Below the pieces are notes generated by a model. That model was not told where the DNA came from, made no database searches, and was given only the letters and a program-made list of their open reading frames with translations. A stretch of DNA of 64,000 bases from positions 378 through 64,377 of the forward strand of contig NZ_JASMRZ010000002.1 of assembly GCF_030462475.1 (NCBI RefSeq). Reading direction: 5' to 3'. This DNA comes from Variovorax sp. CAN15. Lineage in GTDB: Bacteria > Pseudomonadota > Gammaproteobacteria > Burkholderiales > Burkholderiaceae_C. Positions 54,155 to 59,953 of the stretch are shown one piece after another (the stretch's first letter is position 1; the number at the start of each line of letters is the position of its first letter). The position numbers were made by a program, and so were the translations under genes.

Positions 54155-55093
54155 TCAGGGAAAGAGTGCCTCGCGCGCGCACTGCGAGGCGGTGTGCAGC
54201 GCGATGCGGTCCTTGAGGTCGTGGAAGTCGGGGGGCTCGGCCGCGTGGGTGCGCAACTCGATGCGGTGGCCGGCCTTGGCGACGGCATCGGCGAAGCGCT
54301 CCTGCAGCGCGTAGGGCGTGTTCCTGTCTTCGCGGTTGCCGATCAGCACGATGCGCCGCGCCGGGTCGCGCACGATGCCGCCCACATGGTCGAGCGGGTC
54401 GTAGAACTCCGTGCTGCCGGTGGTGTCGGTGCGGCCGTCTTTCGAGCGGCCCAGCATGCGCGCGCGCTCCAGCAGCCCGTAGGCACCCGAGGTGAGCACG
54501 GCACAGGCCACGCGGGTGCGTCCCAGCGTGAGCAGCGCCGCACCCGCGGTGGCGCCGCCGCTGTGGCCCACGATGACGATGCGCTGCAGCCGGTGGCGCT
54601 GCATGAGGGCGTCGAGCGCGGCATCGAGCGCATGGAACTCGACGAGCTGGCGGCGCTTGCGGTGATCGCCCGAGGAGCCGTACGTGCCGGGCCGCGCCAC
54701 GAAGATCCACGGCACGCCCGCGCGGTCGCGGCTGCGCTGCGCGTCGAGCGTGCGCAGCTCTTCGGTGTTGCCGGGAATGCGCGTGGGCGCCTGGTCCATC
54801 ACGCCGTCGCGGTCGCCCGAGAACTGCACGATGGCGATGCGCGCGCCGTCGATGTCGTCGCTCGCGAAATAGCGGATGCACGACGGCCCCTCCGCGGCCT
54901 GCACCCACAGGAAGCCCTTGCGGTCGGGGCAGCGCGCGCGGTCGGCGGGCTGGTTCCAGTACAGCACCTCGTCGGCGCCGGCGGCGAAGACGCGCGGCAC
55001 GTCGGGTCCGGTGCGCTGGGCGCAGGCGGTCTGCGCCAGCGCCACGAGCAGCAGCACGAAGCGCAGTCTTCGAAGCGTATGCAGCAGGGTCAT
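54155..55093 (-). CDS. Alpha/beta-hydrolase-like protein, putative lipoprotein/secreted
   Basis: LRFVLLLVALAQTACAQ signal with lipobox-like AQTAC; IVIVGHSGGATAGAALL nucleophile elbow; ATG overlaps the stop of the upstream giant gene (4 nt). Confidence 0.7.
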   Translation of the reverse strand: MTLLHTLRRLRFVLLLVALAQTACAQRTGPDVPRVFAAGADEVLYWNQPADRARCPDRKGFLWVQAAEGPSCIRYFASDDIDGARIAIVQFSGDRDGVMDQAPTRIPGNTEELRTLDAQRSRDRAGVPWIFVARPGTYGSSGDHRKRRQLVEFHALDAALDALMQRHRLQRIVIVGHSGGATAGAALLTLGRTRVACAVLTSGAYGLLERARMLGRSKDGRTDTTGSTEFYDPLDHVGGIVRDPARRIVLIGNREDRNTPYALQERFADAVAKAGHRIELRTHAAEPPDFHDLKDRIALHTASQCAREALFP

Positions 55094-58000
55094 AGCCTTT
55101 GCAGGAGTTCCGGAATGCTGCCGAAGTCGGAGCCGACGCGATCGCCCTTCACCAGCACGAGGTCGCCATTGCGCAGCACGCCCCCCAGGTAGCCCGCGAG
55201 CTGCGCGGCGTCGTCGAAATGCGGGCCGAGCAGTTCACCCGGTACCTCCTCGCGCAGCCAGCGCATCTCGTCGCCGTGCGTCACCAGGTGCTGGATGCCC
55301 GATGCCAGCAGCGGCGCGGCCAGGCTGCGATGCATGGCCTCGGCATCCTTGCCGAGGTTGACGATGCGCCCCAGCACGCCGATCTTGCGCAGCACCGGGC
55401 CGCTGTCGGCGCGCTGCCAGGTGCGCACGAACTCCATGGCGTTGCGCATCGACATGACTTCGGCGTTCCAGCTGTCGTCGACGAGCGTGGCCTGCACGCC
55501 GGCCTGCGTGCGCAGCGCGCGCACCTGCATCACCGAGGCCGGCAGGCGAACATGCGGCATGCGCGCGCAGGCGGCCTCGCCGTCGAAACCCATGGCCAGC
55601 AGCGCCGCGAACGCGAGCAGTGAATTGCGCACCAGCCCCGCGCTCTCGACCGGGAAGACATATTCGAAGGTGCGCCCCGGCACCGCGACGCGCACACGGC
55701 AGCCGCCGCCGGGCTCCGGCCGTGCGTCGAGCATGCGCACGTTGGCGTCGGGGCCGCTGCCCACCACCCAGATCGCGCCGGCCGTGAGCGCGGCGGCGTC
55801 CACCACCTGGCGCAGGCAGGGAATATGGTCGGGCACGACGGCCACGCCGCCGGGCTCCAGCCCGAGGAAGATGCGCGACTTGTAGGCCGCCGTAAGCTCC
55901 AGCGTCGATGCCTGCCTGGTCTGCGACAGGCCGATCTCGGTGACGATGGCAACATGCGGACGGGCCATCAGCGAGATCGGGCCGCGGTCCATCCACAGGC
56001 CGCTCTGCGCCATCTCCAGGATGCACACGTCCACATCGGGCCCGAGGTTCGCGAGCATGGCCGGCACGCCGACGCGCGAGTTGTAGTTGTCGATGGTGGT
56101 GTGCACCCGCGCGCGCTCGGGCAGCAGGTCGCGCAGCATCGCGATGGTGGACGACTTGCCGACCGTACCGGTAACGCCCACCAGCATGCCCCTGTAGCGC
56201 TCGCGCGCGGCGCGGCCCATGGCGATCATCGCGGCGATGGGGTCGTCCACCTGCAGCAACGGGAAGGCCGCGTCGAGCCCTTCGACCGGCCGCGCGACCA
56301 CGGCGCCGGCCAGTGCGGAATGCAGCCGGGGCAGTTCGAGATGCCGGTCCCAGTTTTCGGCGCGCGGCTTGCTGTAGCTCTCGTGCACGGCCAGCGTGCG
56401 GAAGTCGGACGCGATGAAGAGCGAAGGCTTCGGCAGAAGCCCCATGTGCACCGGTCCGCGCACCACCGAGCTGGCGAACCAGCCCGGCGGCGGCTCCACG
56501 AGCCACCGGCCGCCTGTTGCCTGTCGCAGCTGTTCGGCCGTCCAGACCGGCTCGCGGCCGGCGCCGGGGCGGTCAGCCGCGAGCACGGGCGCGGGGCGCT
56601 GCGGCAACGGCGTGGGCATCTCCGGCACGCGCAGCCCGCACCACAGCGCGAGGCGCCGCGCGGGCGGCAGCCCGGGCCAGTCGCCGCGCACGCCCACTTC
56701 GATCTGCAGCACGTCGCTTTCGAGCAGCCCCGCGCGCGGCGGCCGCAGGCCATAGCGGTCGCGGTAGATGCGCCCCGGCTCCCAGCGGCTGGTGGGCCAC
56801 ATCCAGTCGCAGGGGTCGTGGTCCATGCCCTCGCCCCACGCCGGCATGCGGGTGCTGCGCATCGGCAGCGCGCGGAAGTGCAGGCGCAGGTCGGCGGCGA
56901 CGGGTGCGTCGGCGCTCCAGAACGATTCGACCCACAGCATGCGCCGCCCGACGATCTGCCGCGGCACGCAGCGCAGCCCGACCAGGCGCAACGGGCCGAA
57001 CTGCAGCGGCGCGATGCGCGCTTCTTCGGGCACCGCATCCACCAGCCACTCGGGCCGAGGCGCGGGCAGGGCCGCAATGGCACGGGCAGGCTGGAAGGCC
57101 GGCGTGCCGGCACTGTCCGGGTCCGCATGGAACGCGGGCCGCTCGGGCGGCGACAGGCGCACCGAGCAACGCCCGTCCGGCAACTGGCTCATTTGCGTGC
57201 CGAGCGCAAGGCACTGCGCGGCGAAGCGCTCGCTCAGGGCGCGTGCCTCGTCGCCTTCGAGCTGCCGCGAGAAGCCGAAGCCCACGCCCACGGGCGTGAA
57301 CATCACCTCCTCCGCACCGCGCGGGCTCAGCTTCAGCGTGAAGACGCCGGAGTCGGCGAAGTCGTTGCGCACCGAATCGAACAGCAGGTCGCCGGCGTCG
57401 TGCAGGATCGGCCTGCCCTTGTAGGTTTCGATGCCCTGCAGCACGTGCGCCGAAGTGCCGAGCACCGCGTCCGCACCGGCATCGACGATCGCATGACCGA
57501 CGGCGATCTCGGCCTGCGTGGGTTCGGTCTCGAGGTTGGCGCCCCAGTGCACCGCCACCAGCACCACGTCGGCCTCGCGGCGCGCGGCCTCGATGCGCGG
57601 CGCGAGCGTGGCGGTCCAGGCGGCGGGGTCCTCGAGCGGCAGCCACGCGGCGCCCGCGCGCTCGGCGCTGGCGGCAAAGCGCGGCTGCGTGGCGTCGAGG
57701 GAGAAAAGCGCCACGCGCACGCCGCCCGCGCGGCGGAACGCCGGGCGCAGCGCGGCCTCCAGGGTGCGGCCGGTGCCGGCCTGCGCGATGCCCGCGACCT
57801 GCAGCAAGGCGTGCTGCTCCATCAGCGCTTCCGGGCCGTAGTCGCCGCTGTGGTTGTTGGCGGTGGCGACCATGCCGATGCCGGCCTCGGTCAGCACCGC
57901 GAGCATCTCGGGCCGGGCGCGGTAGTAGTACGGGCCGGCCTCGCCCTTGTCCACGCCCTGCTCGCCGATGGTGGCGACCACGCATTCGAGGTTCACGATG

Positions 58001-59823
58001 CCCAGGTCGGCTTCGCGCAGTGCGGCGATGTCGCCGAGCATCCGCTGCGCGCCGCCGAGGTCCTTCAGCCGGTAGTGCTGGCGGCGCGAGAGGTTCACGT
58101 CGCCGCCCCATGCGACGGTGCCGGTGGCGCTGCCGGCGGCATCAACCGCCTTCAGCATGCGGTGGTACGCCACGTAGCCCGAGAGGTAGTGCTCCACGTC
58201 GTCGATGCGCACGCGAAAGCTGTGGTGCTTGATGAAGAACGATCCGGCGATGCGCGCCGGGTTGCGGAAGAACATCGCCAGCTCGGGCCAGAAGTGGCCG
58301 TTGGCGAGGTAGCGCGCGCGGTATTCGAGCGCGCGGTCGAACCTGTCGCGGTCGAGCCCGGCCAGCAGCGGGCGCAGCTCGGGGTCGGCCTCCAGCCGCA
58401 GCACCATGTCGCGCGCGGCCATCATCAGTTCGAGCAGCGTGGGGAAGGTGGTGATGCGCTCCAGCACGAAGTCGAGATAGCCCGCCACGTTCTGCAGTCC
58501 GAACCTGTAGTAGCGCAGCTCGGGCCTGTAGCGCGTGAGCTCGTTGACGCAGTAGCTCAGCCAGTGGTCGTGCGCGCGCCAGTGCTCGGCGGCAATGAAG
58601 TGCTCGAAGGCTTTCTCGACCACCGCGAGCCAGCGCGCGTCGCGCGTGAGGCCGTACAGGCGCATCAGCCCGAAGGCGGCCTCGCCGTCGTAGTAGATGA
58701 CCCGGAACCTGTCCTTCACGTCGAGCGCGGGCGCATTGAGCACGTGCACGAAGCTGCCGGTCTCCGGGTCCTGCATGTGGCGGATGCCGAGCGCGAGCTG
58801 CTCCAGCAGCGGCAGGTATTGCTCGTCGCCGGTGAGCTCGGTGTACTTGACCAGCGCGAGCAGGCACACGGCATTGCCGCCGAGCTTGATCTCGCTGCCG
58901 ATGTCCAGCAGGTAGGCCGCGCGCGTGCCGTCGGGCAGGTTGGCCGGGCGGATCAGCGTGCCGGCGAGGAAGGCCAGCGAGCGGTCGATGGCGGCCTTGA
59001 GCGTGTCGTTGCGCGTGAGCTCCCACGCTTCGAGCATCGCGTAGGTCGAGCTCGCGTGGCGCAGCGTGTTGTAGGTGGGAATGGTGCGGTCGAAACAGGG
59101 AAACCAGCCGTAGTGGAACTCGCCTGTGGGCTTGACCTGCGCGGCGAGGTAGTTGCCCGCGTCGTCGATCAGCGCATGCACCTGCCGCGCGTTCCAGTCG
59201 CCCAGTTCGCGAAAGCCCGCGGCCTGCCCCTCGGCGGTGATGGGCCACGCGCCATTGGCATCGACGTACACGGCTCGCGTGGTGAAGCACCACACCGGCG
59301 CCGCGTCGTCCGAAGGAAAGTCGAGCTCGCGGCCGAAGCGCCGCTTGGTGTGCAGCCGCAGGTTGCCGGTGTTGGGCTCGGCGTGGTCCACGTCGCCGTT
59401 GTAGAGCACCGCGCTGCCGTGCATTTCCTGCGCTAGCAAGGCGAACTCGAAGCGCGCGTCGAAGGCGATGCCCTCGTTGAAGTAGTTGCGCTTGGTCTGC
59501 GCCAACCTTGTCTTCAGCTCGCCCCAGCTCATGGGCACGACCTTGTCGACGACCTCGGCGCGCAGTCGCCGCGGCGGCTGCGCGCCGCGCCTGGCCTGCG
59601 TGGTGATGGCGTCGGCTGCGGCGCGCCATGCGGCGTCGATGTCGGCGCCCCGGCCCGAGGCCACGCGGGCCCGGCTGTTGTCCTCGCCGATGGCGAAGAA
59701 GACCACGCAACCCGCCTCGGCGGTGGCCGGTGCCGCGGAGGGCAGCACGCCCGCCGGGTCCGCCAGGGCCTGCCTGGCGCGGGTCAACAGATCTGCAAGT
59801 GGATTCTTCGGGTCGTGATTCAT
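55090..59823 (-). CDS. Giant multidomain protein (1577 aa): N-terminal toroid-like region + CapA-type domain + beta-sandwich-like linker + CapB/Mur-ligase-type ATP-dependent domain
   Basis: Single uninterrupted frame. CapA motifs WGGDVNLSRR, NLECVV, ANNHSGDYG, VHWGANLE, SAHVLQGIETYKGRPILHDAGDLLFD; Mur/CapB P-loop GVTGTVGKSSTIAML and downstream EMAQSG...VTEIGLSQ. Confidence 0.85.
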   Translation of the reverse strand: MNHDPKNPLADLLTRARQALADPAGVLPSAAPATAEAGCVVFFAIGEDNSRARVASGRGADIDAAWRAAADAITTQARRGAQPPRRLRAEVVDKVVPMSWGELKTRLAQTKRNYFNEGIAFDARFEFALLAQEMHGSAVLYNGDVDHAEPNTGNLRLHTKRRFGRELDFPSDDAAPVWCFTTRAVYVDANGAWPITAEGQAAGFRELGDWNARQVHALIDDAGNYLAAQVKPTGEFHYGWFPCFDRTIPTYNTLRHASSTYAMLEAWELTRNDTLKAAIDRSLAFLAGTLIRPANLPDGTRAAYLLDIGSEIKLGGNAVCLLALVKYTELTGDEQYLPLLEQLALGIRHMQDPETGSFVHVLNAPALDVKDRFRVIYYDGEAAFGLMRLYGLTRDARWLAVVEKAFEHFIAAEHWRAHDHWLSYCVNELTRYRPELRYYRFGLQNVAGYLDFVLERITTFPTLLELMMAARDMVLRLEADPELRPLLAGLDRDRFDRALEYRARYLANGHFWPELAMFFRNPARIAGSFFIKHHSFRVRIDDVEHYLSGYVAYHRMLKAVDAAGSATGTVAWGGDVNLSRRQHYRLKDLGGAQRMLGDIAALREADLGIVNLECVVATIGEQGVDKGEAGPYYYRARPEMLAVLTEAGIGMVATANNHSGDYGPEALMEQHALLQVAGIAQAGTGRTLEAALRPAFRRAGGVRVALFSLDATQPRFAASAERAGAAWLPLEDPAAWTATLAPRIEAARREADVVLVAVHWGANLETEPTQAEIAVGHAIVDAGADAVLGTSAHVLQGIETYKGRPILHDAGDLLFDSVRNDFADSGVFTLKLSPRGAEEVMFTPVGVGFGFSRQLEGDEARALSERFAAQCLALGTQMSQLPDGRCSVRLSPPERPAFHADPDSAGTPAFQPARAIAALPAPRPEWLVDAVPEEARIAPLQFGPLRLVGLRCVPRQIVGRRMLWVESFWSADAPVAADLRLHFRALPMRSTRMPAWGEGMDHDPCDWMWPTSRWEPGRIYRDRYGLRPPRAGLLESDVLQIEVGVRGDWPGLPPARRLALWCGLRVPEMPTPLPQRPAPVLAADRPGAGREPVWTAEQLRQATGGRWLVEPPPGWFASSVVRGPVHMGLLPKPSLFIASDFRTLAVHESYSKPRAENWDRHLELPRLHSALAGAVVARPVEGLDAAFPLLQVDDPIAAMIAMGRAARERYRGMLVGVTGTVGKSSTIAMLRDLLPERARVHTTIDNYNSRVGVPAMLANLGPDVDVCILEMAQSGLWMDRGPISLMARPHVAIVTEIGLSQTRQASTLELTAAYKSRIFLGLEPGGVAVVPDHIPCLRQVVDAAALTAGAIWVVGSGPDANVRMLDARPEPGGGCRVRVAVPGRTFEYVFPVESAGLVRNSLLAFAALLAMGFDGEAACARMPHVRLPASVMQVRALRTQAGVQATLVDDSWNAEVMSMRNAMEFVRTWQRADSGPVLRKIGVLGRIVNLGKDAEAMHRSLAAPLLASGIQHLVTHGDEMRWLREEVPGELLGPHFDDAAQLAGYLGGVLRNGDLVLVKGDRVGSDFGSIPELLQRL

Positions 59824-59953
59824 GCAGCCGCGAATGATGACAGGCCACGGCACGGCCCGCCATCCCGTCGATCCATGGGATTTGCGCGCAGCCTGACCGG
59901 TGGCTGACCGTCGCTCGTCTTGCCGAGCAACCCGCGCTCGGACGAACGCGGCC

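Follow-up and report, generated by a model that had tools for sequence, protein, structure and literature searches.

Serine-aspartate (Ser-Asp) repeats of bacterial adhesins are modified by SdgA/SdgB and GtfA/GtfB, which bind the acidic stalk (PMC8561734). In Staphylococcus aureus, full glycosylation of the Ser-Asp repeats of Pls requires GtfC together with GtfD. GtfD alone gives weak or no Pls glycosylation, depending on the strain, and GtfC, a protein of 538 amino acids (aa) encoded next to pls, is not recognised by CAZy as a glycosyltransferase (PMC5230774). The Paracoccus denitrificans adhesin BapA carries 891 aspartate-alanine (Asp-Ala) units and is needed for biofilm; it runs at >300 kDa versus 212 kDa, and its authors leave a modification possible (PMC5588039). 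In cyanophycin, arginine is attached to Asp side chains by cyanophycin synthetase (PMC9262961). For Asp-Ala stalks, no modification is described in the literature that we found. Here we analyse a fusion protein encoded in a 64,000-nucleotide stretch of Variovorax sp. CAN15 (contig NZ_JASMRZ010000002.1; hereafter the window), which joins an N-terminal module (N), a CapA-type domain, a beta-rich domain and a MurF-type ligase. Comparative genomics and the precedent of GtfC give good support to the view that its family takes part in modifying the repetitive stalks of adhesins.

Layout of the fusion protein

The four parts follow one another, in the order given, within a single chain. Its frame runs from 59823 to 55090 and starts with ATG; an alternative in-frame GTG start lies at 59853.

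55090..59823 (minus strand): whole fusion protein, 1577 aa; open frame, same layout in >20 related genomes
58144..59823 (minus strand): N module, residues 1-560; alignment of 41 sequences, AlphaFold predicted local distance difference test (pLDDT) 93.6, no Pfam or NCBIfam family
57376..58119 (minus strand): CapA-type PGA_cap domain, residues 569-816; Pfam E 7e-58
56629..57018 (minus strand): beta-rich domain, residues ~936-1065; AlphaFold strands, no Pfam match
55102..56445 (minus strand): MurF-type ligase, residues 1127-1574; NCBIfam MurF models, MurF structures, E. coli MurF alignment
56146..56169 (minus strand): ligase P-loop GTVGKSST, residues 1219-1226; kept in alignment A2

An earlier note on this DNA had read the protein as cytosolic, with a CapA-type domain and an ATP-dependent amide ligase fused in one chain. 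In outline this was correct. The uninterrupted frame, now placed on the minus strand, the quoted CapA motifs and the P-loop were all recovered, Pfam added Mur_ligase_M (1217-1407) and Mur_ligase_C (1444-1561), and no transmembrane-like segment was found in the fusion (Kyte-Doolittle 19-residue mean, maximum 1.58). The note had further proposed to check whether homologs keep the architecture, and had named an assembly artefact as a refuting outcome; since the same architecture recurs in >20 Variovorax and Pseudacidovorax assemblies, an artefact is ruled out. The account was nevertheless incomplete, and we regard it as partly confirmed. CapA and ligase do not make up the entire protein, as the ~560 N-terminal residues form a separate conserved module, and the architecture is not unique, with shuffled versions of its modules being widespread.

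The N module and repetitive adhesin stalks

The N module is strongly conserved among the 41 aligned relatives, and neither Pfam nor NCBIfam has a family that matched it. Its AlphaFold model is an (alpha/alpha)6 barrel whose nearest fold is that of AGE-type sugar 2-epimerases (E 9e-8, template modelling (TM) score 0.46/0.63). Distant members give weak GH76, GH88, GH127, C5-epimerase and LanM signals, and a PDB profile search with N returned nothing beyond one chance match. The misleading name 'poly(glycerol-phosphate) alpha-glucosyltransferase' had suggested that a DUF1975 acceptor domain makes up part of the first 200 residues of N; this found no profile or PDB support, and the barrel is neither a GT-B fold nor does it contain DUF1975.

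The window N module aligns with a 538-aa staphylococcal N protein at 34.6% over 93%. The published gtfC primers translate to the N-family peptides STNFLQNM and YETTHLL, which match the same staphylococcal protein. Judged by these sequences, S. aureus GtfC is an N-family member that has been tested under another name. From this kinship and the Pls data it follows that an N protein acts as a factor in stalk modification, with a catalytic partner that can be an enzyme of its own.

Outside the window-type clade, N genes neighbour genes for type I secretion and for giant adhesins whose tracts are Asp-Ala or Ser-Asp; these adhesins are type I-secreted in Gram-negatives and LPXTG-anchored in Listeria and Staphylococcus. 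In plasmid records, N adjoins an LPXTG protein of Listeria whose Asp-Ala stalk is long, Sdr/Rib-type adhesins of staphylococci, a Klebsiella 'clumping factor', an Agrobacterium BapA and others. Altogether, an Asp-X tract was seen in 36 loci that carry N. N was present in 13 genomes of an unselected sample of 398 Pseudomonadota; for nine of the 13 N copies there that fall outside the window clade a tract lies within 20 kb, and two further copies border an adhesin-like open reading frame (ORF) cut by a contig end. A 10-unit Asp-Ala tract was found in 7/13 genomes with N versus 2/297 genomes without N from an order sample, a comparison that is approximate because the two samples differ in breadth; within the order sample alone the figures are 2/3 versus 2/297. 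No other module of the family is as widespread as N, which tracks adhesin stalks across phyla; the reading as a free-standing 'CapA + ligase' is hence incomplete. One of the nine linked copies (G533, L113 5784-10738) directly adjoins an autotransporter with an Asp-Gly tract, so the secretion route can differ. One of the two tract-bearing genomes without N (G173, L117 5237-11402) combines an Asp-Ala adhesin with genes for type I secretion and two Mur ligases in succession.

The partner enzyme of N switches with the stalk type. In all four loci with a glycosyltransferase fused to N or next to it, the stalk is Ser-Asp (Klebsiella S197/A2, G448 S83/A1, G104 S540/A0, S. epidermidis S233/A0), and where N occurs with a Mur ligase, 23/25 have an Asp-Ala stalk (Fisher p 6e-4, for loci that are partly dependent, Klebsiella and G448 being close). 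Twenty of these 23 belong to the first set. The rule was fixed before further genomes were searched, and the held-out genomes yielded three new N and Mur loci with tracts, all three Asp-Ala; they contained no new glycosyltransferase locus, and that half of the rule rests on the first set. The pairing of Ser-Asp stalk and glycosyltransferase appears in three lineages, and in staphylococci even close N relatives (L123 versus L124) differ in both partner and stalk. In pure Asp-Ala loci, we found no glycosyltransferase fused or adjacent to N.

Relatives from 73 loci shuffle the modules in many ways. The order N-CapA-beta-Mur occurs in Variovorax, Xenophilus, Xylophilus, Pseudacidovorax and Microbulbifer, CapA-beta-Mur with a separate N gene in Paracoccus and Alcaligenes, and other layouts are N-Mur, N-CapA, N alone, N-glycosyltransferase and, in G332 and G372, N-ATP-grasp fusions. 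Some Variovorax have lost Mur, or Mur and CapA (L026, L042, L039-L041). On the N tree, whose deep placements are unsure owing to long Gram-positive branches, the full-fusion label needs at least seven changes, and a single origin of the fusion is thus unsupported. Tree and layouts together indicate that the fusion is real and that modules were exchanged repeatedly. Gene calling in these GC-rich loci was mechanical and the neighbour clusters include spurious ORFs; conclusions hence use BLAST and Pfam checks. Next to the loci of Alcaligenes and Variovorax soli stand Ddl-type ligases, and Alcaligenes also has a neighbouring Mur plus peptidase S11 protein.

Further layouts were seen in passing. 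The metagenome-assembled genome of a member of the Desulfovibrionaceae has a permuted N-Mur-CapA fusion (L069 29-4865). In Microbulbifer (L023 14829-18469, L051 14755-17820), extra genes between N-CapA-Mur and the secretion genes encode an ATP-grasp (RimK-like) and acylphosphatase protein, a 2-oxoglutarate-Fe(II) oxygenase and a transglutaminase-core protein. Apparently membrane-embedded proteins of ~600 aa, with no Pfam match, lie between hydrolase and CapA-Mur at L047 8139-9968, L049 8118-9962, L058 12566-14305 and L059 8118-9965.

Ligase, CapA-type domain and a proposed mechanism

The earlier note had called the ligase CapB-like, which our searches did not uphold. Its best NCBIfam models are MurF (E 1e-58 and 8e-56), although their curated cut-offs are not reached (TIGR01143 189.7 versus 288.6 bits; PRK14093 198.9 versus 544), and no PgsB/CapB model was among the NCBIfam matches. 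MurF structures were the top matches by sequence as well as by fold (TM up to 0.84 by target), and the P-loop, the Mg-binding Glu (ILEMAQ) and the active-site Lys (YKSRIF) align with E. coli MurF. The same note had seen no CapC-like gene near the fusion; this holds for the whole genome (PF14102, with a positive B. subtilis control), and a poly-gamma-glutamate (PGA) pathway is hence not indicated. With a MurF-like ligase and no CapC, we reject the reading as a CapB-type PGA synthase. The genome has another MurF-like match on contig 46. We found no membership of the fusion in a defence system.

The CapA-type domain is the sole PGA_cap domain of the window genome, and the beta-rich domain, with the conserved block HDPCDWMWPTSRW, is conserved jointly with it. 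The closest solved relative of the CapA-type domain is the lasso-peptide epimerase MslH, whose epimerase residues we took from published work (PMC10406935). The fusion retains D11, E44, N87, H88, D91, H259 and H295, and thereby both catalytic His/Asp dyads (His88/Asp91 at residues 658/661; His295/Asp11 at 793/575). In contrast to MslH, its Ca ligand set (E44, N87, H259, H261) is incomplete, with H261 replaced by Gly761, and lasso peptide genes are absent. The wider metallophosphoesterase-like fold typically has the shared residues too, and an epimerase role of the CapA domain is therefore only possible.

At the window locus, the gene downstream of the fusion is the following.

54155..55093 (minus strand): alpha/beta hydrolase, Pfam Abhydrolase_1; ATGA overlap with the fusion stop

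The hydrolase has a signal-like N-terminus and is read as secreted. It is a conserved partner of N loci in Variovorax, Xylophilus, Paracoccus, Alcaligenes, Chelativorans, Pseudomonas and Agrobacterium. An Asp-X repeat adhesin does not lie beside N in the window, but does in most relatives; in Xylophilus the same fusion-hydrolase pair has an Asp-Ala adhesin on one side and the secretion genes of that adhesin on the other. Elsewhere in the window genome, contig 101 has an N-Mur gene at an Asp-Ala adhesin and secretion locus, and contig 172 encodes a second adhesin with an Asp-Ala tract and no N gene nearby. This second adhesin (L128 9084-12116), in which GLLGGVLG-type repeats follow the tract, has counterparts of the same kind in two congeneric genomes. 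Because Xylophilus pairs fusion and hydrolase with such an adhesin, the second adhesin is a natural candidate substrate, and the window copy may still serve an adhesin encoded at a distance. The genome also encodes a BapA_N adhesin with bacterial Ig repeats (L129 12050-18394), of which the assembled part has no Asp-Ala tract.

We consider it probable that the fusion is a cytosolic stalk-modifying enzyme. The N module would recognise or process the Asp-X dipeptide repeat and hold the stalk, while the fused ligase would use ATP to activate a carboxylate, most likely the Asp side chain of the stalk, and join an amino acid or dipeptide to it. Mur ligases form an acyl phosphate first and the amide next. 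We propose amidation of Asp because of this chemistry, the cyanophycin precedent and the fact that a pure Asp-Ala stalk offers only carboxylates. The added group might be a dipeptide such as D-Ala-D-Ala, as hinted by the Ddl-type ligases and the Mur plus peptidase S11 protein. The CapA domain would probably epimerise or trim the product, and the modified adhesin would then leave via the type I system. For the family, we thus envisage a set of enzymes that probably decorates stalks before export, most likely with amino acids or short peptides on aspartates. More tentatively, MurF-like and ATP-grasp ligases may act through the common N module on the Asp side chains of (Asp-Ala)n stalks, ribosomally made with tens to hundreds of units, to yield a surface polymer reminiscent of cyanophycin or peptidoglycan, with CapA as its epimerase.

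Several points weigh against this proposal. The modified stalk is so far a prediction, and acidity alone could account for the high apparent mass of BapA. Near some N genes, in Listeria and Enterococcus, neither a ligase nor a glycosyltransferase is encoded. The partner rule has two exceptions: G596 combines N-Mur with Ser-Asp repeats, and in S. lugdunensis a mixed stalk occurs alongside a broken Mur gene. Moreover, neither an adhesin nor a secretion system stands beside the window-type fusion in the window or in any examined Variovorax orthologue, and MurF motifs are altered in the window-type ligase (Gln for His in the SQT stretch, GDMxELG to GRIVNLG, DDSYNAN to DDSWNAE). These last two features, and the loss of Mur or of Mur and CapA in some Variovorax, would suit a window-type clade that has departed from stalks and turned to another substrate. 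For the window copy this is the main rival, albeit an unlikely one, given that fusion, hydrolase, adhesin and secretion genes occur together in Xylophilus and that the window genome and its two congeners encode a second adhesin with an Asp-Ala tract.

Other alternatives concern the product. MurF being the closest relative of the ligase, and with Ddl-type ligases or Mur and peptidase S11 adjoining a few loci, the enzyme could attach wall-type or UDP-MurNAc peptides and so make the adhesin wall-like or wall-linked. We find this rather improbable, as other loci use ATP-grasp enzymes and type I-secreted adhesins have no obvious need for wall linkage. The resemblance of the N barrel to AGE and GH76 enzymes, its weak GH88 and GH127 matches and the requirement of Pls glycosylation for GtfC might instead indicate that N is sugar-active and the whole system one of glycosylation, in which the amide ligase works on an amino-sugar or uronic-acid group. 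Such a system is hard to reconcile with pure Asp-Ala stalks, which lack hydroxyls and at whose loci we found no glycosyltransferase fused or adjacent to N, and the LanM-type match shows that such barrels serve peptides too; we accordingly hold it to be quite unlikely. Least probable of all seems a free PGA-like polyamide or soluble peptide conjugate made by CapA-type and amide ligase domains, with the adhesin linkage incidental. The union of CapA-type and Mur-type domains in a single chain and the lack of an adhesin next to the window copy would agree with it, but the ligase is MurF-like in a genome devoid of CapC, and N follows adhesin stalks across phyla. Where the earlier note suggested a polyamide or peptide-conjugate synthase, the peptide conjugate thus comes near to the stalk modification that we favour, and the free polyamide is unsupported.

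Asp-Ala and Ser-Asp repeat stalks are common among biofilm adhesins. If our proposal is true, a dedicated cytosolic ligase system acting on them would represent a new type of protein modification and could account for the anomalous size of BapA. GtfC, named a glycosyltransferase in spite of its different fold, would be recast as a general stalk-handling module, and CapA-type and MurF-type domains would gain a role beyond capsule and wall synthesis.

Comparison with known systems

With CapBCA/PgsBCA, the fusion shares a PGA_cap domain and a Mur-type ligase, but it has no CapC, no CapB-like ligase and no membrane anchor. MurF is the closest family of its ligase by profile, sequence and fold; the fused enzyme differs in scoring below the cut-offs, in its altered motifs and in being joined to N and CapA. 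In function, the proposed reaction resembles that of the cyanophycin synthetase CphA1, an ATP-dependent Mur-like ligase that decorates the Asp side chains of a polymer with an amino acid. The cyanophycin backbone, however, is made non-ribosomally via an ATP-grasp domain, and CphA1 has neither an N nor a CapA module.

Among systems that act on stalks, SdgA/SdgB and GtfA/GtfB are likewise cytosolic and encoded beside repeat-stalk adhesins, but have a GT-B fold with a DUF1975 insert, whereas N has another fold. BapA/BapBCD of P. denitrificans is an Asp-Ala adhesin with its type I system that is adjoined by N, hydrolase and CapA-Mur, although N and CapA-Mur are separate genes there. Both lie downstream of bapD and, going by gene order, are probably Pden_2410 (N) and Pden_2407 (CapA-Mur); for Pden_2407-2410 we found no paper. 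GtfC/GtfD of SCCmec adjoins a Ser-Asp adhesin and includes, in GtfC, a member of the N family. Its partner enzyme is a glycosyltransferase acting on Ser, whereas the N module of the window is joined to CapA and a MurF-type ligase.

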